From positions 599,095 to 663,094 of the forward strand of contig NZ_CP087114.1 in assembly GCF_022559585.1 (NCBI RefSeq): a DNA stretch of 64,000 nt, in the 5' to 3' direction. This stretch comes from Bartonella machadoae. GTDB lineage: Bacteria; Pseudomonadota; Alphaproteobacteria; Rhizobiales; Rhizobiaceae. Below are positions 38,553 through 56,351 of the stretch, one piece after another. Numbering within the stretch: the stretch's first letter is position 1; every line of letters begins with the position of its first letter. The position numbers were made by a program, and so were the translations under genes. Under the pieces are notes generated by a model, which was not told the origin of the DNA, did not search any database, and worked only from the letters and a program-made list of their open reading frames with translations.

Positions 38553-38553
38553 T

Positions 38554-39942: not shown

Positions 39943-39989
39943 AGGGAGCTCCTAATCTATAGTTAGTAAAATTTTGAATGAAATTTAGA

Positions 39990-40020
39990 GAGGGGCGCCC
40001 CCGCCGCGCCCACGGTGTTA
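39990..40020 (-). repeat. GC-rich intergenic hairpin, array spacer 1
   Basis: Minus strand taacaccgtgggcgcggc followed by gggggcgcccct, almost the same as the block at 39388-39420 with one base change. It lies directly behind the stop of array gene 1. The conservation suggests it was duplicated along with the genes, or that it works as a transcript-end or recombination signal. Confidence 0.6.
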
Positions 40021-40021
40021 T

Positions 40022-40807
40022 TTACGCAGCATCTTTAAGAGACTGATCGTTAGTACAAATATCATCACGAATTTTTATATGGCTATTAACCACGGCATTG
40101 CCATAAATTTTTACATGATGATCGATATTTGATTTACCATAAACCTTGGCATTATCATAAATTCTTGCCAAGCAACCAACGCGCGCCGAGCCAGAGACTT
40201 TTGCATTGCCATAGACACTTGCATAATCCTTAATCCAGGCATTGCAAAAGACATGGGCATTATCATAAATATGTGCCCATACATAAATACGTGATTTACC
40301 ATAAACATGGGCATTTCCAAAAACATAGCCACAAATATGTGCCCTCTCATAAACCCGTGCGTTATCATAAACCTTGGCACCATCAGCAATAGTAGCGTTA
40401 TCACTTACAACGGCATTGCCAGAGACATGACCACAGACCCTAGCGTTATCGTTAATTTTTGCATTTTCATAAACATGAGCTTTATAATCAAACACCCATG
40501 CCTTGCCATTTACAGTAGCATTTCCATAAACCTTGGCTTGTCTAAAAACTTTAGCTTCTTGATAAATTTTAGCATTCTCATAAAGCTTGGCATCCAAAAA
40601 AACCGCGGCATTATCATAAATCCAACAATTGCCATCATGAGAGAGGTTATCTTCGTTTTCAATAAAGCCACCCAATTGACCAGCCTTTACATCATCAAAA
40701 TCTCTTAATGCGCGAATGCGGTGTAAAGTAATCCCATCAAAAGTGAAGTTTTCAGTGGTTAATTCATATTTTTTGGATGATTTTCTATTTTTAACAGTAG
40801 CATTCAT
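40022..40807 (-). CDS. YdcK-like repeat protein, array gene 1
   Basis: First gene of the array, 261 aa from MNATVKNRKSSKKYEL, with a good AAGGAGA site; an upstream in-frame ATG at 40873 has no such site. The head module is FDDVKAGQLGGFIE and NLSHDGNCWIYDNA. About 28 hexapeptide turns follow (AKVYGNATVNGKAWVFD, AKVYGKSNIDHHVKIYGN). It ends TNDQSLKDAA. A consensus promoter and a structured leader lie upstream. Confidence 0.75.
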   Translation of the reverse strand: MNATVKNRKSSKKYELTTENFTFDGITLHRIRALRDFDDVKAGQLGGFIENEDNLSHDGNCWIYDNAAVFLDAKLYENAKIYQEAKVFRQAKVYGNATVNGKAWVFDYKAHVYENAKINDNARVCGHVSGNAVVSDNATIADGAKVYDNARVYERAHICGYVFGNAHVYGKSRIYVWAHIYDNAHVFCNAWIKDYASVYGNAKVSGSARVGCLARIYDNAKVYGKSNIDHHVKIYGNAVVNSHIKIRDDICTNDQSLKDAA

Positions 40808-40842
40808 GGCTAGTGTCTCCTTGTAGTAATAAAAGTTTTGAA

Positions 40843-40955
40843 TTGACACCCTATAAGGGCATCGGGCGCTCAAAACACGGCTACAAGTCCGTTGTTACGC
40901 TTTTCCTTCGAAAAGGTATTGTATGGCGTAACTACACCCGACAGAATCTTAATAT
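40843..40955 (-). promoter_or_regulatory. Hairpin-rich 5' leader of the YdcK-like array
   Basis: On the minus strand TCGGG (about 40942-40938) can pair with CCCGA (about 40866-40862). Within it GTTACGC pairs with GCGTAAC around the tight hairpin CTTTTCcttcGAAAAG-like arms, and ACGG/CCGT forms a further hairpin. CCCT/AGGG (cccttataggg) follows before the ribosome-binding site. Nested pairing between promoter and first gene suggests a cis-acting RNA; no known riboswitch class was recognised. Confidence 0.45.
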
Positions 40956-41055
40956 ACTAACAAGAGCATAAAAGACAGCCAGTTTTTTTAGATTAGGGAT
41001 TAGGTTTATCGTAACCCATCCGCTTGTAGATTAGTGTTTTGATCACTTGAGTATT

Positions 41056-41084
41056 TATATAACAAATTACGTATTTATTGTCAA
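41056..41084 (-). promoter_or_regulatory. Consensus promoter of the YdcK-like array
   Basis: TTGACA (41084-41079) and TATATA (41061-41056) are separated by exactly 17 bp on the minus strand. Transcription would start near 41049 and give a 5' leader of about 240 nt before array gene 1. Confidence 0.6.
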
Positions 41085-42287
41085 CTATCTTTTATTCTTT
41101 TTTGTGTTTTTTATAATTATTTTTTATACCATTATGTATAAATATGCGTCATATGCTTATGAATAGTTTCTGTTTTATTGCATCTATTTGACTCTATATT
41201 ACGCAATTGCGTTATTTTTCTCTTTTAAACATCATAATAACTAAAAACGCTCTCATAATGCCTATTTTTAACTTTATAACGCATCATTATTTTTATGAGA
41301 TAACTTGTGAATATTTTTGTGAATTTTTTATAAGAGGTTTGTAATTTAAACAGCTTTATAGAGACCGCGTCTTTATAACCAGCGCTTTTGATTCAAATCT
41401 ATTGTTTTGATTCATTCTCTATAGCCACCGCATCATTCTCATAAAAAGGATAATATGATCATGCGGTTTTGATTTTTATAAAAACATTTTGAATTCTTGT
41501 ATCCTTATCAAAATGCCTTTTTATGGGCTTTTGTCTCTTTTGTTTGTTTTGTCAGTTAATTTACCCCCCCCCTTTTATTTAAAAAAATTGAGATAAAATA
41601 AAAACATTATATTTCAATAGGTTAGTATTTTTCAAAATTTTAAAACATCACGTATAAAAGCAATGTGAGTAATATAGACAATTAATGACACGCATTTTGT
41701 CTGTTTTGTCAAATTTTGTCAGTAAATTTTAAAAGACAATTGTTATGATTAGAGTGCGTGTTTAAATCATGTTTTATGAGAGGAAATATGGCTCTTTAAA
41801 TGCCTTTCAAAAGACAAGAGATGGTTATGAGGCGTGTTATAAAGAGTAACTTATCAATTTAAAGGGGGTTTTGAGTTTTGAAACTTTGTGTTTTAAAGAA
41901 AAAAACACTAAAAAGATAAAAAGTATTATATTTCAATATATTAAGTCTTATCAATGCTTCAAAAAACAATCTCTCTTGATAAATACAACCTATTAATACG
42001 CATAATTCTCTTTAAAGAGAGCTTATGAGAGATATGATAGCATCATTTGAGATTGCGATATAATCTTTTAAAGGCAATGTAAAAAAATCTCATTCTATTT
42101 AAGATGGGATTTCTTAAAAACCTTAAAGCAATCCAAATAAGAGTGTCTAAAAGTGCAAGGCTTCTCTTTTTAGAATAGCGCATAGTAAATCATTCCTTTT
42201 AAGATTATAGGTAAGCAACCTAATAAGAGAGTATAGATTATGGTTATAAGATCTATACCCCTTATGAGATTGGCATGCTTCATAAAT
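41085..42287. other. Long AT-rich non-coding region
   Basis: About 1.2 kb without a supportable gene, between the restriction-modification gene and the array promoter. It contains three TTTTGTC words in close succession (around 41694-41722), a further one near 41550, and a G/C-run element at 41548-41588 that is inverted relative to one at 47703-47738. Several short tracts of tatatttcaata recur. It may hold replication or packaging sites of the element. Confidence 0.45.
41548..41588 (-). repeat. Inverted flank element, left
   Basis: On the minus strand the text is a T/A run, a long G run, then gggtaaattaactgacaa. The element at 47703-47738 on the plus strand reads ggggggtaaatcaaccgacaa after a similar T/A run. 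The two face each other across the restriction-modification gene. Confidence 0.45.
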
Positions 42288-45200
42288 CTATTCAGCTTCT
42301 CTTAATTCTAGATTTGGTAAGTTCTTAACAATCTTCATTGTTTCTAAACTTACCGTAATAACCCTTTGGAATAATTCCAATGGATAAGCAGGGTTTCCAA
42401 TGGTCTCAAGTGCATAGCGATTGGCATCATTAACAATGCCACTCTTTTTATCAGTCTTTACACATTGACGTTCCATAACCCATTCAAGAGCGGGTTTACC
42501 ATTTACGATATACTCATAAGCTTCCTTAGGTATATCTGTTATTGTGATATTACTGTTATAAAAAACAGTGGTTTTATCCTTTTCTTGACCATTCCCAGCA
42601 AATTTTATTTCTGTAACGTAATAGAATTTCTCAGGATTAGGAATATTTGTAAGTTTAGGGTCACCTTTTTTAAAGGTCACTGGATAAGGCTCTACCGTTT
42701 CATAATTGACGTGTAAATTGCCTAATTCACGCCCCGCATTAACAAATGCCCAGAAATCTTCAGCACTCTTTACGCAAGGGATGCGAGGCAATTCTTTAGA
42801 GAGATTATCAGCATAGCGAGCACGGTAATCTTCTGAATGCAAGAGACCGTATACGTAATAGAAGATATCATCTTTAGTGATGGTCTCATTCGGATAAGCT
42901 GTTTTAAAATGTGCTAATCCTTCATCAGTAATGGCATCACGACGTTGTAAACCAGCAGCTTTGGTTTCTTCTGTAGAATTTGCAAATAAATGAGATTGGT
43001 CAGAATTTTTATCTTTTGAAGTTCCAGTATCTTCGTAAAAATACCGAGGAAAACATTGACTAGTATCTAGTGCATGAATATCAGGCAAAACTTTACTCAT
43101 CAAAACAGAAAAGCCTTTCATTGCTCCTATTCCGGTAACTTGTATTACTCTATTATCAACTGCTTGTTCCATAGGAAATATATGCGGCATTTGAAAAACT
43201 CTATGGTTAAAAATACGATTGTAATATAGCCATTGTTTTGTAAAGGGACGATAAAGACTTTGCACAAAGCGGCTTTCTTCAAATTCAGAGCATTTGCCTC
43301 TTACAAATTCTTGTTTTAGACTACTACTCCAACTTATCTTCTTTTCGTCAGAATTGACGAAATTGTCTACAGTCTTTGTACGTGCTTTACGGTCAGCATG
43401 GGGATAAGTATTATTAAAACGTCCTACTTCACTATTATAGAACGTAATCGTATTCTTCATGTTGTTTGCTAGAGATTCACGACTTGAATTATATACCCAA
43501 GCATCACGACTAGTTTGTACACCACAAGAGTAAATTTCAAACAGCTTTTTATCATGTCCTTTTCTATACCCTAAGACTAGAAATGTCTTAAAACTGTCAT
43601 CACGTTGATTTACCCAATCACCATGTTTATCTGGTGTAATGATTTTCCAACCGTGTTCACTCCGTGTAATACCATCAACACTACCAAAGTCCTTAATTGA
43701 CTTAAGCTTTTTTTCTCTTGTGAGATAATCTCCAATATCATAGAAATATATTTTACCGCGCTGTTTGGATTCTGGATTTTTTACGAGAATGGAGATTGCA
43801 ATAGGTGCTCGTGATCCAGAACCAAAAATCTTTCCACCTTCTTTTCGAGAAAGCTCTCCAGAGGTTCGTTGATTACCACGTAAGTGGAAAATATAAAGGC
43901 TGCTAAATTCCTCAACAAGGCATTTACGTAAGCCATCCATAGATTTAGTATCTACAAAACTTGCATTTGTCACAAAACCAATAACACCACGGTCTTTTAT
44001 ACGGTCACTAGCCCAGCGGATGGCACGAATATAACTATCATAAAGTGCTTGCACATTAGTTGCATTTGACTGAGCAGCGTAAGTTTCACCAATACGGTCA
44101 TTTAATATGGGATAAGGGGTATTTTTTGCATTGTCATTTTCGCTTTTTTGCCCTGTTGAATAAGGAGGATTACCAAAGATAACTTCAATATTCAGCTTTT
44201 TCTGAAGCTCTAAATATGCACTGTTTTCCTCTAATAAACCCTCCATCAGATCTTGCTTTTCAACCATCTGAAACGTATCGGTTAATCCGATATGTTTGAA
44301 GGGGATATAATTACTTTTCGTAAGACCATGATAGGTTGCTTCAATATTGATGGCAGCAATGTAATAGGCTAATAAAACAATCTCATTGGCATGGATATCG
44401 TAACGGTATTTATATTCCATATCTTCCGGTTTTATCAGATTAGAATGTAAAAGCCGCGTGATAAAGGTACCAGTTCCCGTAAAGGGGTCAAGAATAGAAA
44501 CACCACGGGAGCCTAAGCTCTTGCCAAATTCCTTGCGTAAAACATCATCAACGGAATGAATAATAAAATCCACAATTTCAATAGGGGTATAAACAATGCC
44601 TAATTTTTCTACCGTACGCGGAAAGGCATAACGGAAAAATTCATTATAAAGCTCTACAATTAAGTTTTGTTGTGCTTCAAGACTCGTAATTCCTCGTGTG
44701 TAAAACTGTACACTCCTAGAGAGAGTTCTGTAATCTTGAGATTCTTCGTTAAGAGTAACTTTATCAAGGATATTGAGTACACGTTGTAAAGCACAAGAGA
44801 CGGGATTTTCTTGAACAAACTGATGCCCCTCAAACAAAGCATCAAAGACAGGACGCGTTGCAAGGTGTTGTGCAAGCATTTCAATCGCATTTTCTTCGGA
44901 GATGGTTGCGTTTAAATTGCTACGCAATTCTGTCATAAAATCATTAAACACCCGCCGCGTTTCCGTTTCTGATTGCGTCAAAACTTCAGTTAAGCGTGTG
45001 ATATGATTTTGAGCAAGATCAGCAACATTCGTTGCCCATCTTTTCCAATAGCTAGGGTCGTAATTTTTCTTAACAATAGCCGCTCTAATGAGCTCCGCAC
45101 ATTGAGAGAATAAGTCAAGTTCTTCTTCTGGTTTATAGGCGTGAAAGGATTCATAAGTTGGTGACCCAATATCCAGTCCTGAATATTCTGCTTTTGAGTG

Positions 45201-47261
45201 TATCGGTAAGTCATCAATAACCACAGTTGTATCTTCTGAGGTAGCCTTTTGAGAAGGAACAACAATGTCAAGAGCATAGCTTACGTCTTGTTTTATGGAC
45301 ATATGGTGAATGATTTTATTAAAACCATCATCATGGGCACGCAAAGCATTGACGACTTGCCAGATGACATCATATTTCGGATTATTTTCCAAGGCTTTTA
45401 CTGGTGGAATGCCAGCCGGTATTCCAACGGGTAAAATGATGTAGCCTCTTTTTTTACCCTCTGCTCGACGCATGACGCGTCCTATTGCTTGAATGATCTC
45501 GATTTGACTTTTGCGCGGGTGTAAAAACAGTATCGCATCAAGAGCGGGAACATCCACACCTTCAGAAAGACAACGAACATTGCTTAACACACGGCAGGTA
45601 TTTTCCCCAGTGTCTTCCTTTAACCAATCAAGCAATTTATTACGGTCCTTAGCACTAACAGTTCCGTCAATATGGGCAAATGTACAGTCAAGAGGAGGCG
45701 TTTCTTTATGGCTTTCATGAAGAGCAAGCAAATTTTCTTTCATTTTTTTAGAATTGAATCTTTTACAGATGCGTTTAGAGGTCTTGATATCTTTACAAAA
45801 AGCCAAAGCGCGACGCATAGGGTTGGGGTCATCGCCAAGATCAATTTTTAGATCCATTTTGGTCAGGGCTCGATAACAACCATGGATTTTGGTTCTATAA
45901 TCAAGAATGAGTTCATAATTTTTATCTGTAATAAGACGTTGAATAGATTTGCTTACTTCTGTTTCGTTGACAACTAATATGATCACTTTACAAGGTGATA
46001 ACAGTTTATGTTCTAGAGCTTCTGCAAATGTGTAATGATAGAGTTGTTTCCCATAAAGTGTTTCATCATCCATAGAGGCAAGAACAGTATCAGATAAGTC
46101 AGCTTTCCTTTTTAACCTATCCGTAAAGATTTTTGGGGTTGCGGTCATATAGAGACGTTTTTTACCCTGTATAATGCTGTTATCATGCACTTTGACAAAC
46201 TCAGATTCACTTTTATCTGATCCCAACACAGCACCCGTTGTACGGTGAGCTTCATCACAAATGATCAGATCAAATTCGGGTAAACCATGATCTTTTTGTG
46301 CATCCGATATCACTTGTATCGAATGATAAGTCGAAAACACCACCGTCATTGCATCTGCTTGGTTTTCACGAGCTTCTTTGGCAAGTGCTTGTGCATCCGT
46401 TGTAGCAGGCAATGCAAGATCGGATGTTTCCATTCCAAGAATATCCTCTTGATTTTTACGACGCTTGCCAACTTTTGTATCCGAACAAACAGCAAAGGAA
46501 TGCAATGGAATTTGTGCATCCGCTGTCCATTCCCTTATGGTTTGTGAGACTAATGCAAGAGAAGGCACTAAAAACAAAACACGCTTGCCTTGACCAGCAA
46601 GAGTTTCTGCTATCTTAAGACTTGTAAATGTTTTACCTGTTCCACAAGCCATAATCAGCTTGCCACGGTTAGCTTCTTTTAAACCATCACAGACTTTCTG
46701 AATTGCTTCTATCTGATGAGGGCGTGGTTCTTTTGTCGATTTAAGGACAACTTCTTCTTTTGTTGCAAAGATTTGCCAGTCTATACGACTGTTTTCCATA
46801 TGACGAAGGTCAATGCGATAAACCGGTATCGCTTGTCCTTTAATCATTGCATTCACATTGTCACTTAAATTCACTTCAGTGCTATCAACCAGAAGGCGAT
46901 ATTTGAAGATATCTTTCCCAGAGGCAGCAATAAAGCTATCAATATCCTTTTTACTGATCTGATGGTCTGCTTCATAAAATTTGCATTGAATAGCAACATA
47001 CCCATCTCGATTACGCAGTTTAGCAACCAAATCAATGCCGATATCATTTTTATTCCAACCTTCACGCTCTTTAGCCCACTCGTAATAGCTTTGAACCTTT
47101 TCATATCGCCCATAATGAAGAGGGTCATGCATAAGGTATTTAGTAACAAAACTTTCAAAGATTTTTCCTTTTTTTGCATTTGAGGTTGCCTGTTGGCGAT
47201 AAGACTGTAAGAGAGCGCGTAAAGAGGATTGTTTGTTATCAGAATTGATGGTTTGAGACAT
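42288..47261 (-). CDS. Single-chain restriction-modification enzyme (nuclease-helicase-methylase, type ISP-like)
   Basis: About 1657 aa from MSQTINSDNKQ at 47261; the upstream ATG has no ribosome-binding site. An N-terminal Mrr-like PD-(D/E)xK nuclease has NDIGIDLVAKL and AIQCKF (about 72-95). A superfamily 2 helicase follows: ACGTGKTF (about 206), CDEAHRTTG (about 336), MTATP and QAIGRVMRRAEG (about 590). An N6-adenine methylase has LDPFTGTGTF (about 922) and GNPPYS (about 1030), and a long target-recognition region ends the chain. The layout matches LlaGI/LlaBIII-type ISP enzymes, which cut and protect DNA with one polypeptide. All catalytic motifs are intact. It is probably the island's anti-phage cargo. 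Confidence 0.9.
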   Translation of the reverse strand: MSQTINSDNKQSSLRALLQSYRQQATSNAKKGKIFESFVTKYLMHDPLHYGRYEKVQSYYEWAKEREGWNKNDIGIDLVAKLRNRDGYVAIQCKFYEADHQISKKDIDSFIAASGKDIFKYRLLVDSTEVNLSDNVNAMIKGQAIPVYRIDLRHMENSRIDWQIFATKEEVVLKSTKEPRPHQIEAIQKVCDGLKEANRGKLIMACGTGKTFTSLKIAETLAGQGKRVLFLVPSLALVSQTIREWTADAQIPLHSFAVCSDTKVGKRRKNQEDILGMETSDLALPATTDAQALAKEARENQADAMTVVFSTYHSIQVISDAQKDHGLPEFDLIICDEAHRTTGAVLGSDKSESEFVKVHDNSIIQGKKRLYMTATPKIFTDRLKRKADLSDTVLASMDDETLYGKQLYHYTFAEALEHKLLSPCKVIILVVNETEVSKSIQRLITDKNYELILDYRTKIHGCYRALTKMDLKIDLGDDPNPMRRALAFCKDIKTSKRICKRFNSKKMKENLLALHESHKETPPLDCTFAHIDGTVSAKDRNKLLDWLKEDTGENTCRVLSNVRCLSEGVDVPALDAILFLHPRKSQIEIIQAIGRVMRRAEGKKRGYIILPVGIPAGIPPVKALENNPKYDVIWQVVNALRAHDDGFNKIIHHMSIKQDVSYALDIVVPSQKATSEDTTVVIDDLPIHSKAEYSGLDIGSPTYESFHAYKPEEELDLFSQCAELIRAAIVKKNYDPSYWKRWATNVADLAQNHITRLTEVLTQSETETRRVFNDFMTELRSNLNATISEENAIEMLAQHLATRPVFDALFEGHQFVQENPVSCALQRVLNILDKVTLNEESQDYRTLSRSVQFYTRGITSLEAQQNLIVELYNEFFRYAFPRTVEKLGIVYTPIEIVDFIIHSVDDVLRKEFGKSLGSRGVSILDPFTGTGTFITRLLHSNLIKPEDMEYKYRYDIHANEIVLLAYYIAAINIEATYHGLTKSNYIPFKHIGLTDTFQMVEKQDLMEGLLEENSAYLELQKKLNIEVIFGNPPYSTGQKSENDNAKNTPYPILNDRIGETYAAQSNATNVQALYDSYIRAIRWASDRIKDRGVIGFVTNASFVDTKSMDGLRKCLVEEFSSLYIFHLRGNQRTSGELSRKEGGKIFGSGSRAPIAISILVKNPESKQRGKIYFYDIGDYLTREKKLKSIKDFGSVDGITRSEHGWKIITPDKHGDWVNQRDDSFKTFLVLGYRKGHDKKLFEIYSCGVQTSRDAWVYNSSRESLANNMKNTITFYNSEVGRFNNTYPHADRKARTKTVDNFVNSDEKKISWSSSLKQEFVRGKCSEFEESRFVQSLYRPFTKQWLYYNRIFNHRVFQMPHIFPMEQAVDNRVIQVTGIGAMKGFSVLMSKVLPDIHALDTSQCFPRYFYEDTGTSKDKNSDQSHLFANSTEETKAAGLQRRDAITDEGLAHFKTAYPNETITKDDIFYYVYGLLHSEDYRARYADNLSKELPRIPCVKSAEDFWAFVNAGRELGNLHVNYETVEPYPVTFKKGDPKLTNIPNPEKFYYVTEIKFAGNGQEKDKTTVFYNSNITITDIPKEAYEYIVNGKPALEWVMERQCVKTDKKSGIVNDANRYALETIGNPAYPLELFQRVITVSLETMKIVKNLPNLELREAE

Positions 47262-47702
47262 TATAGAGAAACTCCATACCTTATGACATTGACTCATTAA
47301 CAGTGTAAGAATCACAATGGCGTTTCATAAATACATTTAGAACAAATATCGAGTACCCAATAAACCAAAATGGCGCGAAAACCTATCAAATGCGTCAAAA
47401 AAATTTAACAAGTTGCAATTATAAACAGCCTATAAACAGCAAAGTAGTAAAATTTACTATTCGTTTTTGTGTTAATAAAAACAAATTCGATATGTATTTT
47501 AAGAGATCAAAATAAATAGTTTGAAGTGTTTTATGATCACAAAAATCATAAATGGTGTCAGTTCAATTTTTAGACAAATACAGACAAGTTTTGATCAATT
47601 ATTCCCATTAATTCTCTATACAGATCATCTTATTGGGATGGTTTTTTTGTAAAAATATCATAACATATTGAAATGTAATGTTTTTTACTTTTTGCTAAAA
47701 GG

Positions 47703-47738
47703 TGTTTTTTAAAATGAGGGGGGTAAATCAACCGACAA
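47703..47738 (+). repeat. Inverted flank element, right
   Basis: Plus strand reads tttttaaaatgaggggggta then aatcaaccgacaacgaccga. It matches, in inverted orientation, the element at 41548-41588 over roughly 35 bp. A short tandem (accgacaac, accgacaag) is embedded. Confidence 0.45.
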
Positions 47739-47750
47739 CGACCGACAAGA

Positions 47751-47787
47751 ATATGACCTGAGTTATGGTTATTCATTCAGGTCATAT
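47751..47787 (-). terminator. Hairpin downstream of the DUF3987 gene
   Basis: ATATGACCTGA (47751-47761) pairs perfectly with TCAGGTCATAT (47777-47787) around a 15-base loop. It is 49 bp past the stop of the replication operon and upstream of the restriction gene. It has no clear T-run, so it may be a terminator or a protein-binding palindrome. Confidence 0.5.
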
Positions 47788-47835
47788 CTTTCTCTTTTGC
47801 CAGCACTCTTTAAAATCATCTTTTGTTCATTCGCT

Positions 47836-49452
47836 TTATTGCCTTGCATTCTCGTTTTTTACCAAAGGATGCCATTCATAGTAGGTACTCGATTTACTTG
47901 TCTGATGGGTTATAAACTTTTTGCGAATGTGGTTTGTATGGCATAAAAGCTCTAAAGCTTGTTTGACCGCTTCCTTGTCTTTTAAATGCGCCCAGCAGCG
48001 TCTGTAGATATCACGAGCAGTAAAAACCTCAGGTAAGCAATTACAACGTTCTATAATCAAATTTGCACGCTCCTTTACCAAGATATCGCCCGCAGTATAA
48101 AACCGTTTCGCATGGCTTAACAGATAGTTTGACCAACGCAAGGCTGTTGAGAGAGAAGGCAAAGTGATCTCAAAACGCCCATCCTCAACAAGTTCGATAA
48201 TGAGGGCAAGGCTTGCTATGGTTTTTGGCATTTTTAAAAGATGCGCTTGGTAAGAGACAGAAACTTTGCTTTCCTTGATTTCTTTATGATGATTTTCCCA
48301 CCATTCACGAAACAATTCTTGAGCATTAGCAGCAAAGCGCATGATCCGTGGGTGCTTAGGTGATCCCAAGGGTTTGTCATAAAAAGAACGAAGCACCTTT
48401 TCATATTCTTGATAGGCTTCTTGATTGGGATTTTTATCTTTCCATTCCCACTCTTGGTTTTCATCCGGCCACACCATCATTTGAAACCGTTGCAATAAAC
48501 CGTCATCTGCTTTTCCAGAAAGCATTGCCTGAATGATAGGAATAATCCGAGAAGGTTGTATTCCCCCAATCATTGAAAGCATTACATTGGGAATATGAAT
48601 CGTTCCACGTCCAATACGGTCATAGGTATAGAGTTGATCCCCATTAAAAACTTGTAAATAAAACCCACGGTCTGTTTGATATTCCTTAAGTTCCAAGTTT
48701 GCTAAAAAACCAGAAAGTTCATCACGAACCATCAATAATCCTCGCGGGTTTTCATTGAGTAATTCCCCAAGCTTTTCGACGGTCACATCATTGACAATAA
48801 AGCGAGAGAGGCAATCATCTTTTTCATTGTCTTTAGAAAGGGTTTCCGACAAAAGAGCATTGGCAGCCTCAGAATCTCCTTTTTTAAGAGCTTTAGAAGC
48901 TTGTTTTCTCTTTTCTTTCTGATTGAGCTCCTCAAGGATTTCTTTAATTTTTGCACGTTTTTTTTGTTTTTTCCATTCTTGATACCATTCTTTTTGCAGG
49001 TGAGCGATAGGTGTTAAAGCGGCTTGCATGGCAGGTGTTTTTCGTGCAGAAGGTTGACCAATAATCATCCCCCATAGATTAGGAACAATCTTCCAATTAT
49101 TACTATGTTGTTTTGGAGCGATACGAACCCCATTGCCAATCACAGCTGCTAAAGCACAGATAGCAGAGACAGCCACAAAATCGACAGGGGATTGTTGATG
49201 GTTAGCAATATCATAAATATACCTTCCCAAGACCAATGGAACTTGTGTAGCATGAAAAGGCTCGACCGGTAAAAGAGCGGTGTTAATCGGTTTTAATTCA
49301 CCCCAGCCCATTTGTTGCAAAGCCTGTTCATAAGGGATGGCTTGTAAACAGGGATGCTCCTTTAAAGAGACAGGGGTGTTATCGTTATCAGTATCATTTA
49401 AAGAAGTATTGCCATTTTTATTGGTTAAATCAGTTTTATTTTTGTGGTCCAT
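47836..49452 (-). CDS. DUF3987 helicase/primase partner protein
   Basis: A 538-aa protein with the DUF3987 pattern: VAVSAICALAAVIGNG, NWKIVPNLWGMIIG, then a P-loop-like GQPSARKTPAMQ. Later blocks are LLMVRDELSGFLANLE and MLSMIGGIQPSRI, with RFQMMVWPD. A charged, probably coiled-coil stretch (EILEELNQKEKRKQASKALK) lies around residues 165-185. These proteins are linked to Toprim primases in satellites and integrative elements. It overlaps the primase 3' end by 28 bases. The ribosome-binding site GAAAGGAATA fits the start at 49452. Confidence 0.85.
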   Translation of the reverse strand: MDHKNKTDLTNKNGNTSLNDTDNDNTPVSLKEHPCLQAIPYEQALQQMGWGELKPINTALLPVEPFHATQVPLVLGRYIYDIANHQQSPVDFVAVSAICALAAVIGNGVRIAPKQHSNNWKIVPNLWGMIIGQPSARKTPAMQAALTPIAHLQKEWYQEWKKQKKRAKIKEILEELNQKEKRKQASKALKKGDSEAANALLSETLSKDNEKDDCLSRFIVNDVTVEKLGELLNENPRGLLMVRDELSGFLANLELKEYQTDRGFYLQVFNGDQLYTYDRIGRGTIHIPNVMLSMIGGIQPSRIIPIIQAMLSGKADDGLLQRFQMMVWPDENQEWEWKDKNPNQEAYQEYEKVLRSFYDKPLGSPKHPRIMRFAANAQELFREWWENHHKEIKESKVSVSYQAHLLKMPKTIASLALIIELVEDGRFEITLPSLSTALRWSNYLLSHAKRFYTAGDILVKERANLIIERCNCLPEVFTARDIYRRCWAHLKDKEAVKQALELLCHTNHIRKKFITHQTSKSSTYYEWHPLVKNENARQ

Positions 49453-50352
49453 AAGATATTCCTTTCAAAGGGTAAAAAATCATTAAAATCAGCTCCTTCG
49501 GGAGCTTGCATCATCAAGACATTGAAGCCTTGGCGATAAGCACGGGCAGCAAGGGCAAAACCTGCTTTACGACCCGCATCATCGCCATCCATAGCTATGG
49601 TGAGATGGGTTTTTGATTTGATATGGGGTAAATTCACATGCACCATGCCACTGGTTGAAAGGGATGCCCATAAAGTCACAGGCTGCGATAACAGACCAGA
49701 CAGCAGAGAAAGACCTGTTTCAATTCCTTCACAAATGACCAGATGTTGAGAATTAGCTTGGCATAAATGCACAGCACCGCCCTTAACAGAGCCCAGCATG
49801 GCTTTTTTTGGTAACTGTTCTGTTTTGCATCCATTGTCTTGTAAAAAGGTTCTATGGATTGCAAAGGAGCCACCACCCTCAACACGAGCAACCAACGCGG
49901 GGATATTTTTCCCAGAAGGATAGGGGCATTTGCTATGAAAACGTAAACTAGGGAGGCAAGTTACAAGTGATCCCACGCTTGCATAAATAAAGCTCTGCTA
50001 TGGTCTCTTTAATCGGTTGACTTTGCTTCCAAATCTTTTGTGCTCTCTCTGCTTTCTGTTTTGCCTTGTTATCTTCACAACAAAACTGTTTTGAGAGAGA
50101 AAACCTATAATCATAAGTTTTATCAAAACATGTTTGTGTATTGATAAGACCAATGCTCTTAAGAGCTTGTAAGATCTCTTTAAAAGAGCATCCGGCATAA
50201 CAATAAAGCAAGAGACGCCCGTCATTTCCATTGGCAAGGGATAAACTAGGCACTTGATCATCATGAGCAGGGCAGCGGGCTAGTCCATAAGCACCATGCC
50301 AGATACCCCGCAAGGCATTTGTAATGCCCCGAGCATTTATAAAATGATACAT
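49425..50352 (-). CDS. Toprim-type primase, reading frame changes at a CCC-TAG
   Basis: The zero frame runs from MYHFINARGITNALRG (50352) with the zinc-type motif CPAHDD and CYAGCSFKEI to ITCNLPP and a TAG at 49948-49950. The family text continues in the +1 frame as SLRFHSKC, ALVARVEGGG, then the Toprim core LVICEGIETGLSLL and AMDGDDAGRKA, ending at 49425. Joining needs a +1 shift at ccc-tag, where a ribosome could slip from CCC to CCT. The decayed left copy has the same junction. It is either a programmed frameshift or an old shared mutation. Confidence 0.8.
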
Positions 50353-50420
50353 TTTCTCATCCTTAGACGTTGCGTCACAGGACGGTTTTTGCTATTTTCT
50401 TATCGGTTCATAAGAGAAAG

Positions 50421-50452
50421 CCTTGTCCGTCCTTACGTGACAAGGTTTTTTT
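50421..50452 (+). terminator. Hairpin with T-run between primase and AlpA genes (right copy)
   Basis: CCTTGTC and GACAAGG enclose an 11-base loop and seven Ts follow on the plus strand. It has the same arms as the copy at 928-959, with one loop change. In the minus-strand message it is the only feature between alpA and the primase. Confidence 0.5.
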
Positions 50453-50657
50453 ATGCCACATCACTGAGATGTTGACGTTGCGTTTTGGCTTTTTCAATCA
50501 CATTCAACAGATCCGATTTTAACCAACGCGATAAAGAACCAAACTTTAAGGGCTTTGGTAAAGCTCCATTGGTGACATGGCGACGGAATGTTGAAACGCT
50601 TATATGCAATAATTTTGCACTTTCACGGTCTGTAAGAAGCACATCATTTTCAGTCAT
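50451..50657 (-). CDS. AlpA-family small DNA-binding regulator (right copy)
   Basis: 68 aa, starting MTENDVLLTDRESAKLLHIS. The MerR-like helix-turn-helix (KLLHISVSTFRRHV) and the wing with SLSRWLKSDL mark an AlpA/excisionase-type protein. It has GAAAGGATT upstream. It sits between the integrase and the primase and probably controls integrase expression or excision. It is nearly identical to the left copy, which survives in an otherwise ruined island. Confidence 0.87.
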   Translation of the reverse strand: MTENDVLLTDRESAKLLHISVSTFRRHVTNGALPKPLKFGSLSRWLKSDLLNVIEKAKTQRQHLSDVA

Positions 50658-50829
50658 AACTAAATCCTTTCAATCTAAAAAGAGTAACAAATCATAAGTA
50701 TTTATTAACCATATTTTACTGAGATTTGAAAGTAAGTTTAATCATAAAAAACAGTACCTTATGATGTATTTTCTCATTTGATAATTTATGAGTCTTATTG
50801 AGTCATAGTGAGCAAACGAAGAGAGAAAG

Positions 50830-50838
50830 TTATCCACA
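50830..50838. promoter_or_regulatory. Consensus DnaA box
   Basis: TTATCCACA within agttatccacagataatgg, which is conserved between the two islands. It lies between alpA and the integrase end, a place where satellites can carry their origin. Confidence 0.4.
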
Positions 50839-50906
50839 GATAATGGAATAAAAATGGGGTACAAGACCCCATCTTTTAAGATTGCCCCGTGACATAAGCC
50901 GCCCAT

Positions 50907-52043
50907 TTATCCATATAAAACACGGCGCTGTTCTAAATAGTCAGTACGACGGTAGGCACGCTCCACTTTACCCCCGACCACATGACCTAGAATGGTTTCT
51001 GCGACCTCAAAAGGGGCATCGGTTGTTTCTGCTAGCCAATCGCGTAAACTAGACCGAAAACCATGCGGGCAGGCTTCAAGTCCAATTTTTTTCATATATT
51101 GTGACATACAAGTATCAGCAAGAGGACCACGACCAGTTGCAGAAAAAAAGAAATCATTACGAGAGAGAGGACGCGCTTGTTTCAAAATTTCTAATGCTTC
51201 ATTTGATAAAGGCACACGAAACTCTGTTGTAGCATCACGTTTTCCTTTCATATTTTCAGCAGGGATGGTCCATATATCATCTTCAACTTGATCTTTATGG
51301 ATATGACGCAAAGGATAGGTACGAACACCTGTCAAAATAAGCAAACGCAAAGCCAGTTGTGTTAGAGTTGGTGTTTTGCAAAGTATTTTATAAAAAGCCG
51401 GTATATCTTTCCAATCCATTGCTGGTCTATTTTTGATTTTATGACGTTGTTTGCCTAAAAGAGCCTTTGCTTTTTCTGTAGCCTGTAAATCAACATCCAA
51501 TCCCATTGCAGCAGCATGTTTGAGACAAATATTAAGACGAATGAGAGCTTTCTCTGCTGTTCCAGCTTTTGTATGCCAGATGGGAGCGAGGACATTGCGT
51601 ATATCGGTTTGAGTAATTTCTGAAACCGGCATACAACCTAACTTAGGGAGAATATGAAGTTGTAAAGGTGAAAACCAACGCCCATCTTTAGCATCATTTT
51701 TTAATTCTGCTTTACGAGTTTCAAAAGTATCTAAAGCGATATCTTTTAGATAATGCAGATTACGCATTGCCTCACGCTTTTGTTTGTCACGTTCTTTAAT
51801 GGGGTCACGACCATCACGAAGAACAAAACGCCATTGGGTTGCCAATTCACGAGCTTTTTTTAAAGAGACATTTCTTAAAGCACCCAAGCCCATTTCGCGA
51901 CGCCGCCCGTGGATGGTATAGCGTAAAAGCCATTGAGCACCACCATCTTTACGCTTATGAAGTAGCAAGCCGGCACCATCATTATATTTGCCAGCCCCCA
52001 ATGTTGCGACAGCCCTTGCATTAAGACGATTCATTAAAGGCAT
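50907..52043 (-). CDS. Tyrosine recombinase (P4-like integrase), right copy
   Basis: 378 aa from MPLMNRLNARAVATLG. It has the DUF4102-type arm-binding domain (about 1-90), a core-binding domain and the catalytic domain with R (LTGVRTYPLRH), HGFRSSLRDW, LGHVVGGKVERAY and the tyrosine region RRTDYLEQRR. Compared with the left copy, one extra base in an A-run near 50920 shifts the frame after EQRRV and replaces the last 12 or so residues with LYG. The catalytic residues are all before this, so activity is possible. It probably mobilised the island to its left. Confidence 0.9.
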   Translation of the reverse strand: MPLMNRLNARAVATLGAGKYNDGAGLLLHKRKDGGAQWLLRYTIHGRRREMGLGALRNVSLKKARELATQWRFVLRDGRDPIKERDKQKREAMRNLHYLKDIALDTFETRKAELKNDAKDGRWFSPLQLHILPKLGCMPVSEITQTDIRNVLAPIWHTKAGTAEKALIRLNICLKHAAAMGLDVDLQATEKAKALLGKQRHKIKNRPAMDWKDIPAFYKILCKTPTLTQLALRLLILTGVRTYPLRHIHKDQVEDDIWTIPAENMKGKRDATTEFRVPLSNEALEILKQARPLSRNDFFFSATGRGPLADTCMSQYMKKIGLEACPHGFRSSLRDWLAETTDAPFEVAETILGHVVGGKVERAYRRTDYLEQRRVLYG

Positions 52044-52132
52044 TTTTGTTCTTTTCTAAACTGTTTTTTACCCACACACCAACCCCACTTATGACGTGCA
52101 AATAAGTGACTTTAATTGATTGAACATAATAT

Positions 52133-52210
52133 GATTTGAATTGAGAGAATCTTACAATATTCGGGGGTCTAATTCAACATGCAAAACAGTAAATTATCAT
52201 TATAAATCAA
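52133..52210 (+). repeat. Integrase-upstream repeat, copy R4
   Basis: Fourth copy, about 100 bp upstream of the right integrase. Its outer end (tataaatcaa, 52201-52210) supplies the stop codon of the methyltransferase gene, so the repeat edge coincides with a gene end. That is what an attachment-site junction would look like. Confidence 0.8.
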
Positions 52211-52770
52211 TGCGTTGTACACCGTTGTTCGCCATTAAGGGTGACGACTGTCGTCATTATTGGTTCGTGAAGACAGAGATAACCACCAGGGGTGATATGT
52301 TCCCAAAGTGTTATAATAAATCGCACATCGTCTGCTGGAGTTCCAGCATCAATCCAAGCAAAATCTATTGGTCCCCAAGATTTGAGTGTATTTTCATCGA
52401 GGGAGAAAAAATTTTCATTGATAAATGTTACAGTGTTTTTTTCAATATTGGCATTGAGAAGTTTTTGCCATGCTTCTTCTGCAGATTGACCTTCTGCTGT
52501 AAAATCATCAATTGTGATAAGTCGTGGTTCATAAGTGTCTGGAATTCCTGAGGGGTCAAGCAGAGCTGTGCACTCCTCCCAATGAGAGGATTCGAGAAGC
52601 CTTTTATCTTGTTGCCATGATAATTTAGCTTTTTGAAGGGCTTGAGCAATAAAGCATGTACTATCGCCAGCACCGATTTCAATAACTGTGCGTGGTCTTG
52701 CCATTTGAATAAGTGTACCAATAAGTTCAGCACTCTTTTCTGTTCCCATTCTAGGTTTTATCAGTGGCAT
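52207..52770 (-). CDS. Class I SAM-dependent methyltransferase, 3' end replaced by repeat
   Basis: 187 aa from MPLIKPRMGTEKSAEL at 52770, after AAGGATAAAA. The SAM-binding motif I is TVIEIGAGDST and the later core is IDFAWIDAGTPADDV followed by TPGGYLCLHEP, a Rossmann methyltransferase resembling O-methyltransferases. The last residues (GEQRCTTH) run into repeat R4, whose sequence provides the TGA. The final beta strands may therefore be missing or altered. It ends the minus-strand peptide/oxygenase locus, 11 bp after the preceding gene, and could methylate the product. Confidence 0.78.
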   Translation of the reverse strand: MPLIKPRMGTEKSAELIGTLIQMARPRTVIEIGAGDSTCFIAQALQKAKLSWQQDKRLLESSHWEECTALLDPSGIPDTYEPRLITIDDFTAEGQSAEEAWQKLLNANIEKNTVTFINENFFSLDENTLKSWGPIDFAWIDAGTPADDVRFIITLWEHITPGGYLCLHEPIMTTVVTLNGEQRCTTH

Positions 52771-52780
52771 CTTTTTATCC

Positions 52781-53455
52781 TTATAAGAGAAGAAATCGCA
52801 ACATTCCTGCTTTAACAAAAAGCTTTATTGAATTGTCTACAGGGGGTTGAATAGGTATCGGTGTTGCAGTTCTTTTTAAGAAATGCTTGGTTTTTTCATT
52901 AAGCCGAATTGTGCGCCTATTAAGCTGGTTGATGGCAAGGTAGCCGATGGGGGAGTGAGTGATAAAGCATGTTGGTTCTCGTAAAAGAGCTGTTATATTA
53001 TCCTCTGAAAGGGCTTTTTGATCTGTTTCAATGATTCCATGTCGTACCAATGATATTAAAAGAATTCCAGCAGAGAAAAGAGAACCATTAAGTTGTATTT
53101 TTTTCAATGATTGTATAACACATCCTTCACGAAGCGCTTCAGATGTTTGGAAATCAAATCCACCAAATGCTGCTCCTGTCGGAAAAATAGCAGTGATAGG
53201 TTGAATTTGGCGTTTTCCAATTAAAGCAGGCTTCTCCTTCTGTATCTGTACATCCTTTGCCCATTGAACACGTGCCAAAGGATTTAATTCACGTGAATAA
53301 ACAGCTAAAGAATTTATCGCTATCGGCGGAGTAGGTTTTTGCAATTCAAGGGAATGGACGTACTCATGGCAATCATGTTGCATATAGTCTGCAAGTTGCC
53401 ATACATAACCGCCTGTTCCATTGTAAAAATTTAAACCTATCGGGTCTTGTTGCAT
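52781..53455 (-). CDS. Unrecognised protein of the peptide/oxygenase locus
   Basis: A 224-aa soluble protein that I do not recognise. No ribosome-binding site is clear before MQQDPIGLNFYNG. A leucine-rich segment (SAGILLISLVRHGIIE, about 130-145) looks like part of a winged helix. The C-terminal stretch IGYLAINQLNRRTIRLN followed by EKTKHFL resembles the C-terminus of the oxygenase gene upstream and, loosely, PqqD-like peptide-binding domains. That would fit a peptide-recognition role, but it is only a pattern impression. Confidence 0.55.
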   Translation of the reverse strand: MQQDPIGLNFYNGTGGYVWQLADYMQHDCHEYVHSLELQKPTPPIAINSLAVYSRELNPLARVQWAKDVQIQKEKPALIGKRQIQPITAIFPTGAAFGGFDFQTSEALREGCVIQSLKKIQLNGSLFSAGILLISLVRHGIIETDQKALSEDNITALLREPTCFITHSPIGYLAINQLNRRTIRLNEKTKHFLKRTATPIPIQPPVDNSIKLFVKAGMLRFLLL

Positions 53456-53650
53456 AATGTTAAATCGACTTATTGGACTCTTTCAAGGTTTAAAGCTTTT
53501 GAAAAGTTTGTTCGTTCATATATATTTTAGGACATGAAATAAGATTGACTCATAAGAGGTTTATATTATTTCAAAATCAACAATTCTATCGAGTAGTTGG
53601 TGCACCTTTTAGCTTGTTGCATTGTTTACTTTAGAAAAAAACGCAGCTTT

Positions 53651-54859
53651 CTACGAACCATCATAAACTTCCCTTTTTTGTACAGTGCTATTTAACACAA
53701 AACCTAAAGTGCCTACGACCATTGTGGCGATGCCGATTGCAAGGAGAGTGTTTTGGGTATCATGCACACGAATAAAGCCTGCTCCGATAAAACCAATACA
53801 CACAGATGTTTGTAGAATAAAGACATAAGCTGGCATTTGATTGTTTCTATGTTCTTTCGCAATGGCTTTCATCATAAAGCTTGCCATGAGGGCATTTTGC
53901 ACGCCATTGGCTGCTCCAAGGATAAAAAATGAAACCATCATCAACCAAACAAAATCTGTTAAGGAAAAACAGAAAACTCCAAAGCCGATGATTGTTGCGG
54001 ACAAAGATGCTCCAGCGGCATTGCCAAAGCGATTAAAAAGGCTAGAGAAGCAGAGTGGACCAACCACTAATCCTAGACTTACCATGCTTGCGATCATTCC
54101 ATATGTTTGCGCGCTTAAATGAAGATTGGTACGGATACGGACAATAGATAAAACGTTGAGAGCAGAGGTGAGTATGATGGTGATAATGAGTGGCGTAAGA
54201 GCATAGAGAACATTTTTTTTACGCAATAATCCTCTTACATCTAGTCCTTTTTTGGTTTGCTCGGATGTGTTGATCTTTTCTGAATGTATTTTTAATATTT
54301 TAACACAGAATGTGGTGATAAAGGTTGCACAAAGAACGATGACTGAAAGCACAAACAACCCTTTTTGTCCGTTTGATAAACTGTATAACAGACCCCCTAA
54401 GAGGGGGCCTCCAATATAACCAAGGTTGCGAACTGTTTGGATGATACGATTGATGAAGTCTAACTGGTGATCATTCTTGACAAATTCAGGGACAGAAACG
54501 AGGATTGCAGACCAAAAGAGTGATCCAGCACATCCTAGTGCAAAAGAAATGGAAATGTATGCCCAAAATTGGTTTACGATTGCAGCTATGGCTATAAATA
54601 TTGCTTGAAACAATAAAACAGCAGGCACTGTATAGGTGGGGCTGAGAAGATATAAGAGCCGTGGTGCAACTGGTCCAGCGCAAATTGCACCGATAAGTCC
54701 GGCGAGCAAGAGCATTGAAATAGAAGCTGTGCTTTTTGCTAAGTGGAGAGCAAATGTAACTTGCGCTGTTTCATCGGTAAAGCTGCTTAAAGCTAAAACA
54801 AGAAAAAAGCAAATTTGGGCAAGAATAATGGATTTTTTCTTTATCAAAGCGTTCCCCAA
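53651..54859 (-). CDS. MFS transporter, probable exporter of the locus product
   Basis: A 402-aa protein with 12 hydrophobic segments in the MFS pattern. It begins SIILAQICFFLVLALSSF, has an ETAQVTFALHLAKSTASIS first loop and a second-half motif NRFGNAAGASLSAT. The start overlaps the oxygenase stop by 16 bases, so the two are translationally coupled. A tight link to a modifying enzyme and a small peptide gene suggests it exports the product or gives self-protection. Confidence 0.8.
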   Translation of the reverse strand: MGNALIKKKSIILAQICFFLVLALSSFTDETAQVTFALHLAKSTASISMLLLAGLIGAICAGPVAPRLLYLLSPTYTVPAVLLFQAIFIAIAAIVNQFWAYISISFALGCAGSLFWSAILVSVPEFVKNDHQLDFINRIIQTVRNLGYIGGPLLGGLLYSLSNGQKGLFVLSVIVLCATFITTFCVKILKIHSEKINTSEQTKKGLDVRGLLRKKNVLYALTPLIITIILTSALNVLSIVRIRTNLHLSAQTYGMIASMVSLGLVVGPLCFSSLFNRFGNAAGASLSATIIGFGVFCFSLTDFVWLMMVSFFILGAANGVQNALMASFMMKAIAKEHRNNQMPAYVFILQTSVCIGFIGAGFIRVHDTQNTLLAIGIATMVVGTLGFVLNSTVQKREVYDGS

Positions 54860-56037
54860 GATGCTAAAGCTTTTACGGTTTTTAAGACTTCTTCCCGCAT
54901 GACAGGTGTGTATGATTTATCATTGAGTTTTGCTAAGTCGATTTTCTTTCCTGCTGAAAGTTGAGACAGGAAGCTCTCTAGATGAGCGCTATATTTAAAA
55001 CTGGCACAATGCCCATTTGCGGCAATAAGCAGTTCTTTTGTTTCAGGTAAGAAAACCCATTGGAGGGTAGCAGAGGGGCGAAGCATAATTTCACTCTCAA
55101 TTTCAGATACATCAACAAGAGGGCGGCCGACGCATAAACGCGAACTTGTGTCGCAAATTAATTGGGTAATAAGCATACGGCGTTTTAGGGAACTATTCGC
55201 AATTTCCGAGCTTAGAGCGGATAGCTGAAAAGTGTTCTCAGGGTTTAAACTTGCTCTACCCGATGTTCGAATATCATGTCGTGACCGCTCATCAATATGG
55301 AGGAGATGAGAAATATACTCTTTATATTTGTGAGCATCACTTGCTGTTTCCCAAAAGGCAATATTGACATTTACGGCAATATTTTTTCCAGTTTCGGCAA
55401 CATGGAAAGCATCATGAGGAAAGTATGCAACACGATCAGTACGATTTTGTAGTGCGATCGCTGTTGATTTATACGATTCATATTCGGGGTATCTTAGCCC
55501 TTGGAGGTCATCTCGTGTACTGGGCCATGTGAACATTGTTTTCCCATCCCGTAGAGTGAAGCCGAAATTATGAGCATGATCCACGTGGACACCAACATGG
55601 GTAGAAGAATATCGACCGATGAAACAATCAATATCTACTCGTCCGCCTGGTCGAAAGCCCAAAGAGTGTGCTAACCGATCTGCAAATCTTTTTGCCACAT
55701 CCCACATAATTGGGGTGGCCGCGTATAGCCCATAATACATGACTCCCCATTCTTTTCCCTCAGCACAGTGATCAACGCGGGTTATATATTCATCTATAGT
55801 TTGATCAGTGTCCGAAACGAGAAAGTTTGGAAGAGGGCGTGGGGTGCGCATTCCATTAATAACTGTTACTGCCTCAGATTGAGAGTTAAGCGCTAAAAGT
55901 TTATTTGGATTTTCTGCGTATTGCTTTAAAGCACGCAAAACATCCCTTTCATGAAAAGGGATGTTTGTAATTGACAATTCAGCTGCTTTCTTAGCCCAAA
56001 CTTCTTGAGAAAAGCCCTCAGAAAACAATTTAAACAT
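54844..56037 (-). CDS. JmjC/cupin-like Fe(II)/2-oxoglutarate oxygenase
   Basis: A 397-aa protein. The central cupin core has the putative iron ligands H151 and D153 in GVHVDHAHNFGF and the distal H212 in FPHDAFHVAETG, with NVNIAFWE closing the barrel. This is the layout of JmjC-type hydroxylases that act on proteins, peptides or small molecules. Residues 275-397 form a separate domain (LQWVFLPETKELLIAANGH, then a short helix pair) similar to the end of the 52781-53455 protein. It starts 70 bp after the 50-aa peptide gene. No alternative family fits as well; the substrate is unknown. Confidence 0.75.
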   Translation of the reverse strand: MFKLFSEGFSQEVWAKKAAELSITNIPFHERDVLRALKQYAENPNKLLALNSQSEAVTVINGMRTPRPLPNFLVSDTDQTIDEYITRVDHCAEGKEWGVMYYGLYAATPIMWDVAKRFADRLAHSLGFRPGGRVDIDCFIGRYSSTHVGVHVDHAHNFGFTLRDGKTMFTWPSTRDDLQGLRYPEYESYKSTAIALQNRTDRVAYFPHDAFHVAETGKNIAVNVNIAFWETASDAHKYKEYISHLLHIDERSRHDIRTSGRASLNPENTFQLSALSSEIANSSLKRRMLITQLICDTSSRLCVGRPLVDVSEIESEIMLRPSATLQWVFLPETKELLIAANGHCASFKYSAHLESFLSQLSAGKKIDLAKLNDKSYTPVMREEVLKTVKALASWGTL

Positions 56038-56107
56038 GACGATGAAATATGCTAAGCTTTCTTACACTGAATACGCTAAACGCATACAGGTTTGCACCCA
56101 TAATACA

Positions 56108-56260
56108 TTATTGAACTTCATGTAACACATTCACATCGCAGTCTTCTTTGAAAACTTGAGAATCGATACGTTGAGCGTATTTAGTGCTGCTCAAAGGTGG
56201 CGCAACATCATCGACAGCCAATTCAGAGATATTTTCTAATTCATGAAGTGAGATATTCAT
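56108..56260 (-). CDS. 50-aa peptide, candidate precursor peptide
   Basis: MNISLHELENISELAVDD is followed by VAPPLSSTKYAQRIDS and QVFKEDCDVNVLHEVQ. The ATG at 56260 has a very strong ribosome-binding site (AAGGGGGG, 4-6 bases away), and a consensus-like promoter lies 63 bp upstream. The acidic, leucine-spaced first half looks like a leader. The second half holds Tyr, Arg, Lys, Asp and one Cys that could be modified. It heads the oxygenase-exporter-methyltransferase locus. The precursor role is inference from size, position and translation signals. Confidence 0.6.
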   Translation of the reverse strand: MNISLHELENISELAVDDVAPPLSSTKYAQRIDSQVFKEDCDVNVLHEVQ

Positions 56261-56322
56261 ATTTCCCCCCTTAGATAGTTGATAAAAAATTGATGATAAC
56301 CAAAATAAGTTATTGACAACCA

Positions 56323-56351
56323 AAGTTAGCAGAGATTTTATTTTTTGTCAA
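56323..56351 (-). promoter_or_regulatory. Promoter of the peptide/oxygenase locus
   Basis: TTGACA (56351-56346) and TAACTT (56328-56323) with a 17-bp spacer on the minus strand. It would give a leader of about 55 nt before the 50-aa peptide gene. The direct tracts tttggttgtcaataa / tttggttatcatcaa lie just downstream, a place for repressor control. Confidence 0.5.

Follow-up and report, generated by a model that had tools for sequence, protein, structure and literature searches.

JmjC-family enzymes are familiar chiefly as hydroxylases of proteins and ribosomes, and multi-core precursors, in which one leader is followed by several cores, are known from cyanobactins and microviridins. Among ribosomally synthesized and post-translationally modified peptides (RiPPs), JmjC enzymes have been described for biphenomycin-type pathways: according to PMC12707348, BipG is a JmjC ornithine gamma-hydroxylase acting on the precursor, in which the basic residue stands between aromatics (Phe-Orn-Phe), and PbsQ is a further JmjC ornithine hydroxylase of such a pathway as described in PMC12257519. 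In these accounts, the JmjC oxygenase is encoded with a small precursor, a major facilitator superfamily (MFS) transporter is present in bip, and the clusters add a multinuclear non-heme iron-dependent oxidative enzyme (MNIO), a B12-radical S-adenosylmethionine (SAM) enzyme, an Arg-to-Orn enzyme and a TldD-type peptidase (PMC12707348, PMC12257519). An alpha-ketoglutarate (alphaKG) dioxygenase that forms a Cys-Tyr crosslink in a RiPP is credited to Xia et al. 2025 in PMC12636437. Here we analysed a 64,000-nucleotide stretch of Bartonella machadoae (contig NZ_CP087114.1, positions 599,095 to 663,094; the window), in which positions 52207-56260 of the minus strand likely represent a conserved RiPP precursor cassette whose JmjC-type oxygenase likely oxidises the motif KYAQ of a small peptide and whose MFS transporter would export the product.

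The cassette features in the window are as follows; MT2 is one of the two SAM methyltransferases (MT1 and MT2) of intact cassettes, and RRE denotes the RiPP precursor recognition element.

56265..56272, minus strand: Shine-Dalgarno-like AAGGGGGG, 4 bases 5' of the peptide ATG, read from the sequence
56108..56260, minus strand: precursor peptide gene, 50 aa, ATG start, single KYAQ core
56171..56182, minus strand: KYAQ core codons, precursor residues 27-30
54844..56037, minus strand: JmjC-type Fe/2-oxoglutarate (2OG) oxygenase, 397 aa, with H151, D153, H212 and K166, and a modelled RRE-like winged helix at residues 325-393
53651..54859, minus strand: MFS transporter, predicted exporter, 402 aa, Pfam MFS_1 5.6e-24
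52781..53455, minus strand: 224-aa protein without family match, modelled with two winged-helix/RRE-like domains, 58-146 and 150-224
52207..52770, minus strand: N-terminal piece of MT2 (Methyltransf_24 part), 187 aa, MT2 being interrupted by a mobile element

Compared with biphenomycin-type systems, the cassette has a KYAQ core, multi-core precursors and, when intact, two SAM methyltransferases, the comparison being one of core and gene content and not of the oxygenase and BipG sequences. No MNIO, B12-radical SAM or other biphenomycin family was matched among the scanned cassette proteins, the scan being confined to the cassette. The alphaKG crosslinker is comparable by description, as an alphaKG enzyme acting on a precursor Tyr, and is set apart in that KYAQ has no conserved Cys. 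Relative to YcfD/RoxA, NO66 and MINA53, the oxygenase showed 9-17% identity and no PF08007 match at E<=1, and it is linked to the gene of a peptide that is its predicted substrate. Cyanobactins and microviridins rely on unrelated enzymes, and the KYAQ cores hardly vary. Literature text searches, with figures and supplements outside their scope, found no description of the gene set nor, over 5.39 million papers, of the KYAQ motif. The RiPP-type cassette is real and conserved, and probably undescribed; what emerges is a family of precursors with its own core motif, and a set of six genes, of which the peptide, the oxygenase and the 224-aa protein are unnamed by general profile libraries.

Linkage of the peptide and the oxygenase

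Scanning of genome contigs for the oxygenase gave 21 loci, which were thus fetched by the oxygenase alone. KYAQ codons were found within 500 bases upstream of the oxygenase at 18 of them (31 copies; 12 loci in Bartonella and 6 in other genera), and elsewhere at these loci KYAQ occurred once in 374,122 bases read in six frames, with the oxygenase genes excluded from this background; the linkage thus exceeds chance. Among 71 Bartonella genomes, 27 had an oxygenase match at E<=0.001, full-length without stops in 15 and only broken or partial in 12, and 44 had none. The peptide profile matched 23 of the 71: every one of the 15 genomes whose oxygenase is intact, 6 out of the 12 holding broken or partial copies, and 2 out of the 44 that lack a match, each of these two with a short 3' oxygenase remnant. 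In each of the 15 intact-oxygenase genomes, the peptide lay within 350 bases of the oxygenase. The initial annotation, made from the sequence alone, had proposed that the peptide is the substrate of the oxygenase and had named conservation of the two side by side as a check. Such conservation was observed in 15/15 intact-oxygenase Bartonella genomes and at 18/21 loci, so that an encoded precursor stands beside candidate modifying enzymes as in a RiPP pathway. In a sample of 398 genomes from the window's own phylum, which does not cover the Streptomyces and Burkholderia families, the oxygenase was found at E<=1e-10 in one genome, that of the window itself; the cassette is therefore rare and patchy.

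The precursor peptide and its KYAQ core

When the genes upstream of the oxygenases were translated, the peptides from outside Bartonella showed the same leader as those of Bartonella, followed by tandem core units. The core pattern [VI]xPxxxxxKYAQ is repeated two to five times in peptides of Burkholderia, Paraburkholderia, Pandoraea and Streptomyces: the Burkholderia precursor at locus L031 has three units of the type VEPVVANVKYAQRND, that of Paraburkholderia oxyphila (L036) has four, and that of Streptomyces (L037) has five and ends in KYAQL. Single cores occur in some actinobacterial-type and other peptides, and the Bartonella precursors mostly have one core, with two in P0058. In total, 120 cores were counted over 75 distinct precursors, at 1 to 5 per precursor and at least two in 34/75. 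The core-to-core interval was 17 residues in 43 of 46 cases, Pro stood at position -6 in 120/120 cores, and the sole core that was not KYAQ read KCAQ. One further peptide, P0110, had no core under the counting rule, which took only sites with the Lys and at least three of the four KYAQ letters. The KYAQ frequency in this count is partly circular, since the peptide profile was seeded with KYAQ peptides; the adjacency count given above and the codon analysis below are independent of that search.

The ratio of nonsynonymous to synonymous differences (pN/pS) was determined along the peptide from 17 Bartonella genes, with L028 excluded for an early stop, L042 as a near-copy of the window and L058 for its altered tail, and the L029 peptide, which has a reading-frame change near its start, retained. 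Computed without tree correction on sequences related by descent, pN/pS was 0.39 in the leader (constrained), 1.19 in the spacer before KYAQ (unconstrained) and 0.58 in the tail (weakly constrained). The KYAQ codons of 14 distinct Bartonella genes showed zero nonsynonymous differences (pN/pS 0), although every one of the four residues is encoded by two alternative codons, and the three excluded peptides all still encode KYAQ. Purifying selection, whose absence the initial annotation would have held against its proposal, is therefore present on a defined core, and this codon-level constraint rules out a spurious open reading frame (ORF). By the segment ratios and the repeats, the precursor consists of a leader and one or more constrained cores, as a RiPP precursor does.

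A core that is near-invariant between Actinomycetota and Pseudomonadota while the spacers vary, that shows no diversification although the cassette is patchy, and that is present in 1 to 5 copies would also suit a peptide serving as a scaffold from which a small molecule or cofactor is excised, as PqqA serves for pyrroloquinoline quinone (PQQ), the KYAQ residues being oxidised and released, with one invariant product across phyla and with repeats that set only the yield. We regard this as rather unlikely. Among the cassette proteins (flanks not scanned), no peptidase or radical-SAM family was found, and the cassette conserves its predicted exporter. An oxygenase match at E<=0.001 is also missing from 44 of the 71 Bartonella genomes, which rules out an essential cofactor as the product.

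The oxygenase and the 224-aa protein

A protein database search returned 53 homologues of the oxygenase at E<=1e-3, from genera including Bartonella, Burkholderia, Paraburkholderia, Caballeronia, Pandoraea, Ralstonia, Cupriavidus, Verminephrobacter, Arthrobacter and Streptomyces, and the nearest named one was from Bartonella harrusi (97%). The H151/D153/H212 triad had already been recognised in the initial annotation, and it proved invariant, together with K166, across 24/24 aligned homologues. An HxD...H iron triad with a Lys 15 residues past the first His is what characterises JmjC Fe(II)/2OG enzymes, and this Lys presumably occupies the position of K214 in FIH. In Foldseek and VIA comparisons, the predicted model matched NO66, YcfD, JMJD5 and FIH, in keeping with the double-stranded beta-helix JmjC fold, and its residues 325-393 form three strands and then three helices, an RRE-like order. 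The oxygenase models as a JmjC fold with a C-terminal RRE-like domain. With the oxygenase as query, a search of solved structures returned only FIH (E 0.7-1); the window oxygenase matched 0 Pfam families at E<=1, the Burkholderia oxygenase matched only PF23161 (E 0.23), and PF05402, the PqqD-like RRE, gave no match at E<=1 for the oxygenase or the 224-aa protein.

Since the ribosomal oxygenases NO66 and YcfD were the closest folds, the enzyme could be a RoxA/NO66-type hydroxylase of proteins or ribosomes with an incidental neighbourhood and a regulatory peptide. This is very improbable: the PF08007 match is lacking, a peptide with a tandem constrained motif accompanies the oxygenase across phyla, and an occurrence in 1 of 398 genomes is unlike that of a housekeeping ribosomal oxygenase.

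Both halves of the 224-aa protein model showed a winged-helix likeness to RREs, with middling Z-scores and without the strict strand-helix order. The RRE proteins resembled were the ThcOx N-terminal domain, TigE, TbiB1 and PbtF, and RiPP proteins were among the best VIA matches. A sequence search of solved structures returned nothing credible for this protein.

KYAQ was also seen near the C-terminus of some Bartonella oxygenases themselves (L022 1954, L025 11129, L028 11122, L047 7845 and L056 8197), though not in that of the window; this may be chance or substrate mimicry.

Gene order across genera

The initial annotation had listed five ORFs on one strand, and all are present on the minus strand. 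At L031, L033, L036, L037 and L039, which span Burkholderia, Paraburkholderia, Pandoraea and Streptomyces, the order is peptide, oxygenase, MFS, MT1, 224-aa-type protein and MT2, so the five genes are part of a set of six, one of those seen being incomplete. This recurrence of the same order in other phyla rules out an accidental neighbourhood. MT1, the second SAM methyltransferase, matches Methyltransf_25 at L031 (293 aa; 301 aa at L037), and MT2 at L031 joins Methyltransf_24 to a C-terminal DUF2087 (414 aa); the contig of L034 ends within MT1. All six genes are present in Bartonella doshiae (L027). At the other Bartonella loci searched, no full MT1 was found, and remnants were present in L024, L035, L073, L074 and L076. 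In Bartonella bacilliformis (L038), the 224-aa-type protein and MT2 are inverted and placed on the opposite side of the peptide. In the oxygenase tree, its sequence branches outside a group that unites the other Bartonella with the Burkholderia relatives, with weak support (88/81) and on a long branch whose placement is unsure.

Among the window's five proteins, Pfam named only the transporter and the methyltransferase above cut-off, and NCBIfam recognised 0/5. The ribosome-binding site AAGGGGGG is strong, as the initial annotation had stated, and similar G-rich sites lie upstream of the peptide homologues in Bartonella. The good promoter that it had placed before the peptide did not hold up: the sigma-70-like site there scores 9/12, the region contains 10 such sites against 14.0 +/- 3.4 in shuffles, and a strong promoter was dropped. 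A plasmid- or phage-borne cassette was likewise rejected, the Burkholderia oxygenase query giving one weak match in a plasmid collection (43% coverage, 26.7% identity) and zero phage matches.

At L041 7642-9307, a Streptomyces oxygenase of 35% identity lies between an MFS-like ORF before it and a DUF2087-like ORF after it, and perhaps represents a sister system with another substrate.

The MFS transporter

The start of the MFS ORF overlaps the oxygenase stop by 16 bases, and the gene holds the same cassette position across phyla, in agreement with the initial proposal. An intact MFS gene was found in 29 of the 71 Bartonella genomes, comprising 15/15 with an intact oxygenase and 14 without one. 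In G025 and G055 (L071 and L072), the MFS gene, the 224-aa-type protein and MT2 are full-length, and the peptide and oxygenase are absent. A self-protection role of the pump would fit the 14 genomes that keep it without an intact oxygenase; another transporter role would give the same retention pattern. That the transporter persists where peptide and oxygenase have been lost offers a handle on whether the product is an antagonist. In Bartonella tribocorum L103 (L025 11176-13667), the MFS gene was present in two tandem copies.

Interruption of MT2

Homology places residues 1-184 of MT2 at 52770-52219 and its residues 183-409 at 36360-35680, on the two sides of an integrative element. The SAM methyltransferase of the initial annotation thus stands as a Methyltransf_24 match, but as a fragment of 187 aa compared with about 412-414 aa in intact homologues. 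Since MT2 is split by a mobile element, modification of the peptide by this methyltransferase, as earlier supposed, is unlikely in the window genome. In the nearest relative, L042, MT2 is frameshifted and has no insert. MT2 is therefore broken in different ways in the two, and the peptide, oxygenase, MFS and 224-aa genes are open in both; intact MT2 copies occur in other Bartonella. The pN/pS of MT2 between the window and L042 was discarded as meaningless, L042 being frameshifted.

These breaks raise the question of whether the Bartonella cassette is a decaying remnant without a product, in which such selection as remains acts on the transporter and nearby genes, perhaps because they serve another function. 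Besides MT2, the 12 of 27 oxygenase-bearing genomes with only broken or partial copies, the 14 with an intact MFS gene and no intact oxygenase, and the retained genes of L071 and L072 agree with this. We nevertheless consider it quite improbable, as the KYAQ peptide, the oxygenase with its iron ligands, the MFS transporter and the 224-aa protein are all open in the window and KYAQ is strongly constrained across the genus.

At L046, around 10731-10734, MT2 matches in two frames with a break at residue ~182, the same place as the window insertion; integration or excision may favour this site. In L021 (15813-15936) and L025 (17124-17270), additional pieces of the MT2 C-terminus were seen about 1.3 kb downstream of intact MT2.

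Proposed pathway

Read from sequence, the cassette and its order, the multi-core precursors elsewhere, the KYAQ constraint, and the absence of MT1 and split of MT2 in the window are apparent. On the preferred reading of a RiPP cassette, the leader (M-x-I-S-L...EL) would be bound by the RRE-like domains of the oxygenase and the 224-aa protein, and the oxygenase would act on each core using Fe(II), O2 and 2-oxoglutarate. The Lys of KYAQ would be the first-choice target, favoured because BipG, a JmjC enzyme, hydroxylates ornithine in biphenomycin precursors as described in PMC12707348, with PbsQ (PMC12257519) as a further precedent. In intact cassettes, methylation by MT1 and MT2 would follow, the cores would be released by an unlinked host protease, and the MFS transporter would export them and perhaps also protect the producer. 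In the window genome, the end product would be methylated poorly or not at all. A regulatory role is possible for the DUF2087 part of MT2, by analogy with BtmL, a DUF2087 protein that modulates the bottromycin precursor gene according to the text of PMC7113386.

A bolder and unlikely version is that the JmjC enzyme goes beyond hydroxylation and forges an oxidative crosslink in KYAQ, for example Tyr-Gln in Y-A-Q, with the aromatic-x-x spacing of three-residue cyclophanes, or Lys-Tyr. The cassette would then define a new RiPP class with a near-fixed core across distant phyla and a small exported agent, and the MFS transporter would serve as immunity in non-producing Bartonella.

Several points weigh against the RiPP reading. 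Modification of the precursor (+16, +14 or -2 Da) is a prediction, although a likely one. No protease was found among the cassette proteins in a family scan that left the flanking genes aside. The window peptide, oxygenase and 224-aa protein stayed below cut-off in every Pfam and NCBIfam model; among the homologous peptides, oxygenase and 224-aa protein scanned, the sole model at cut-off was PF18874 (QPE), to which the repeat peptide of Streptomyces scored 25.0 bits against a cut-off of 25, no single stretch passing alone. The RRE assignments of both proteins come from predicted models with middling Z-scores, most of them 5-7; 11 of the 19 VIA matches of the 224-aa protein were non-RiPP, and Foldseek gave no significant E-value for its model. 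At the loci, KYAQ peptides were missing upstream of the oxygenase in L032 (Burkholderia territorii) and from the distant homologue L041 (35% identity), peptide and oxygenase are both broken in L040, and one of the 15 intact-oxygenase genomes (G027, that is, L029) has the reading-frame change in its peptide. Since only 15 of the 71 Bartonella genomes retain an intact oxygenase and its pN/pS between the window and the nearest relative, computed from just 22 differences, was 0.52, the window lineage may be under relaxed constraint. The central idea of the initial annotation holds up; what it could not see, namely the multi-core precursors, missing MT1, broken MT2, RRE-like domains and transporter retention, strengthens the class and weakens a complete pathway in the window genome.

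If true, a RiPP class around a JmjC enzyme with its own RRE-like domain would link RiPPs to the hydroxylases and supply a substrate that is easy to test; with several copies of one site per peptide, the multi-core precursors of Streptomyces or Paraburkholderia would simplify such tests.

Integrative element and other features of the window

The element within MT2 and its features were as follows.

36347..52222: integrative element, ~15.9 kb, inside MT2
35668..36360, minus strand: MT2 C-terminal piece beyond the insert, homologous to residues 183-409 of the Burkholderia protein, DUF2087 kept
50907-52043: tyrosine integrase, adjoining the element junction
50451-50657: HTH_17 regulator, on the element
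49425-49976: Toprim protein, on the element
47836-49452: DUF3987 protein, on the element
42288-47315: type ISP restriction-modification enzyme, 1675 aa, on the element
37127-40873: YdcK-like beta-solenoid paralogues, on the element, five neighbouring similar ORFs with YdcK repeats in 3/3 scanned
36347-36359 and 52210-52222: imperfect 13-bp repeat (11/13) at both junctions, read by eye and not tested against chance

No tRNA gene was found within the window. An exact direct repeat at the element ends was rejected, as the longest, a 13-mer at 36613 and 52313, lies off the homology junction; with the imperfect repeat read by eye, the attachment site is therefore uncertain. Outside the element, a 722-aa ORF at 60440-62608 joins an isocitrate/isopropylmalate dehydrogenase domain (PF00180) to MoCF_biosynth (CinA-like, PF00994), a pairing that looks unusual.

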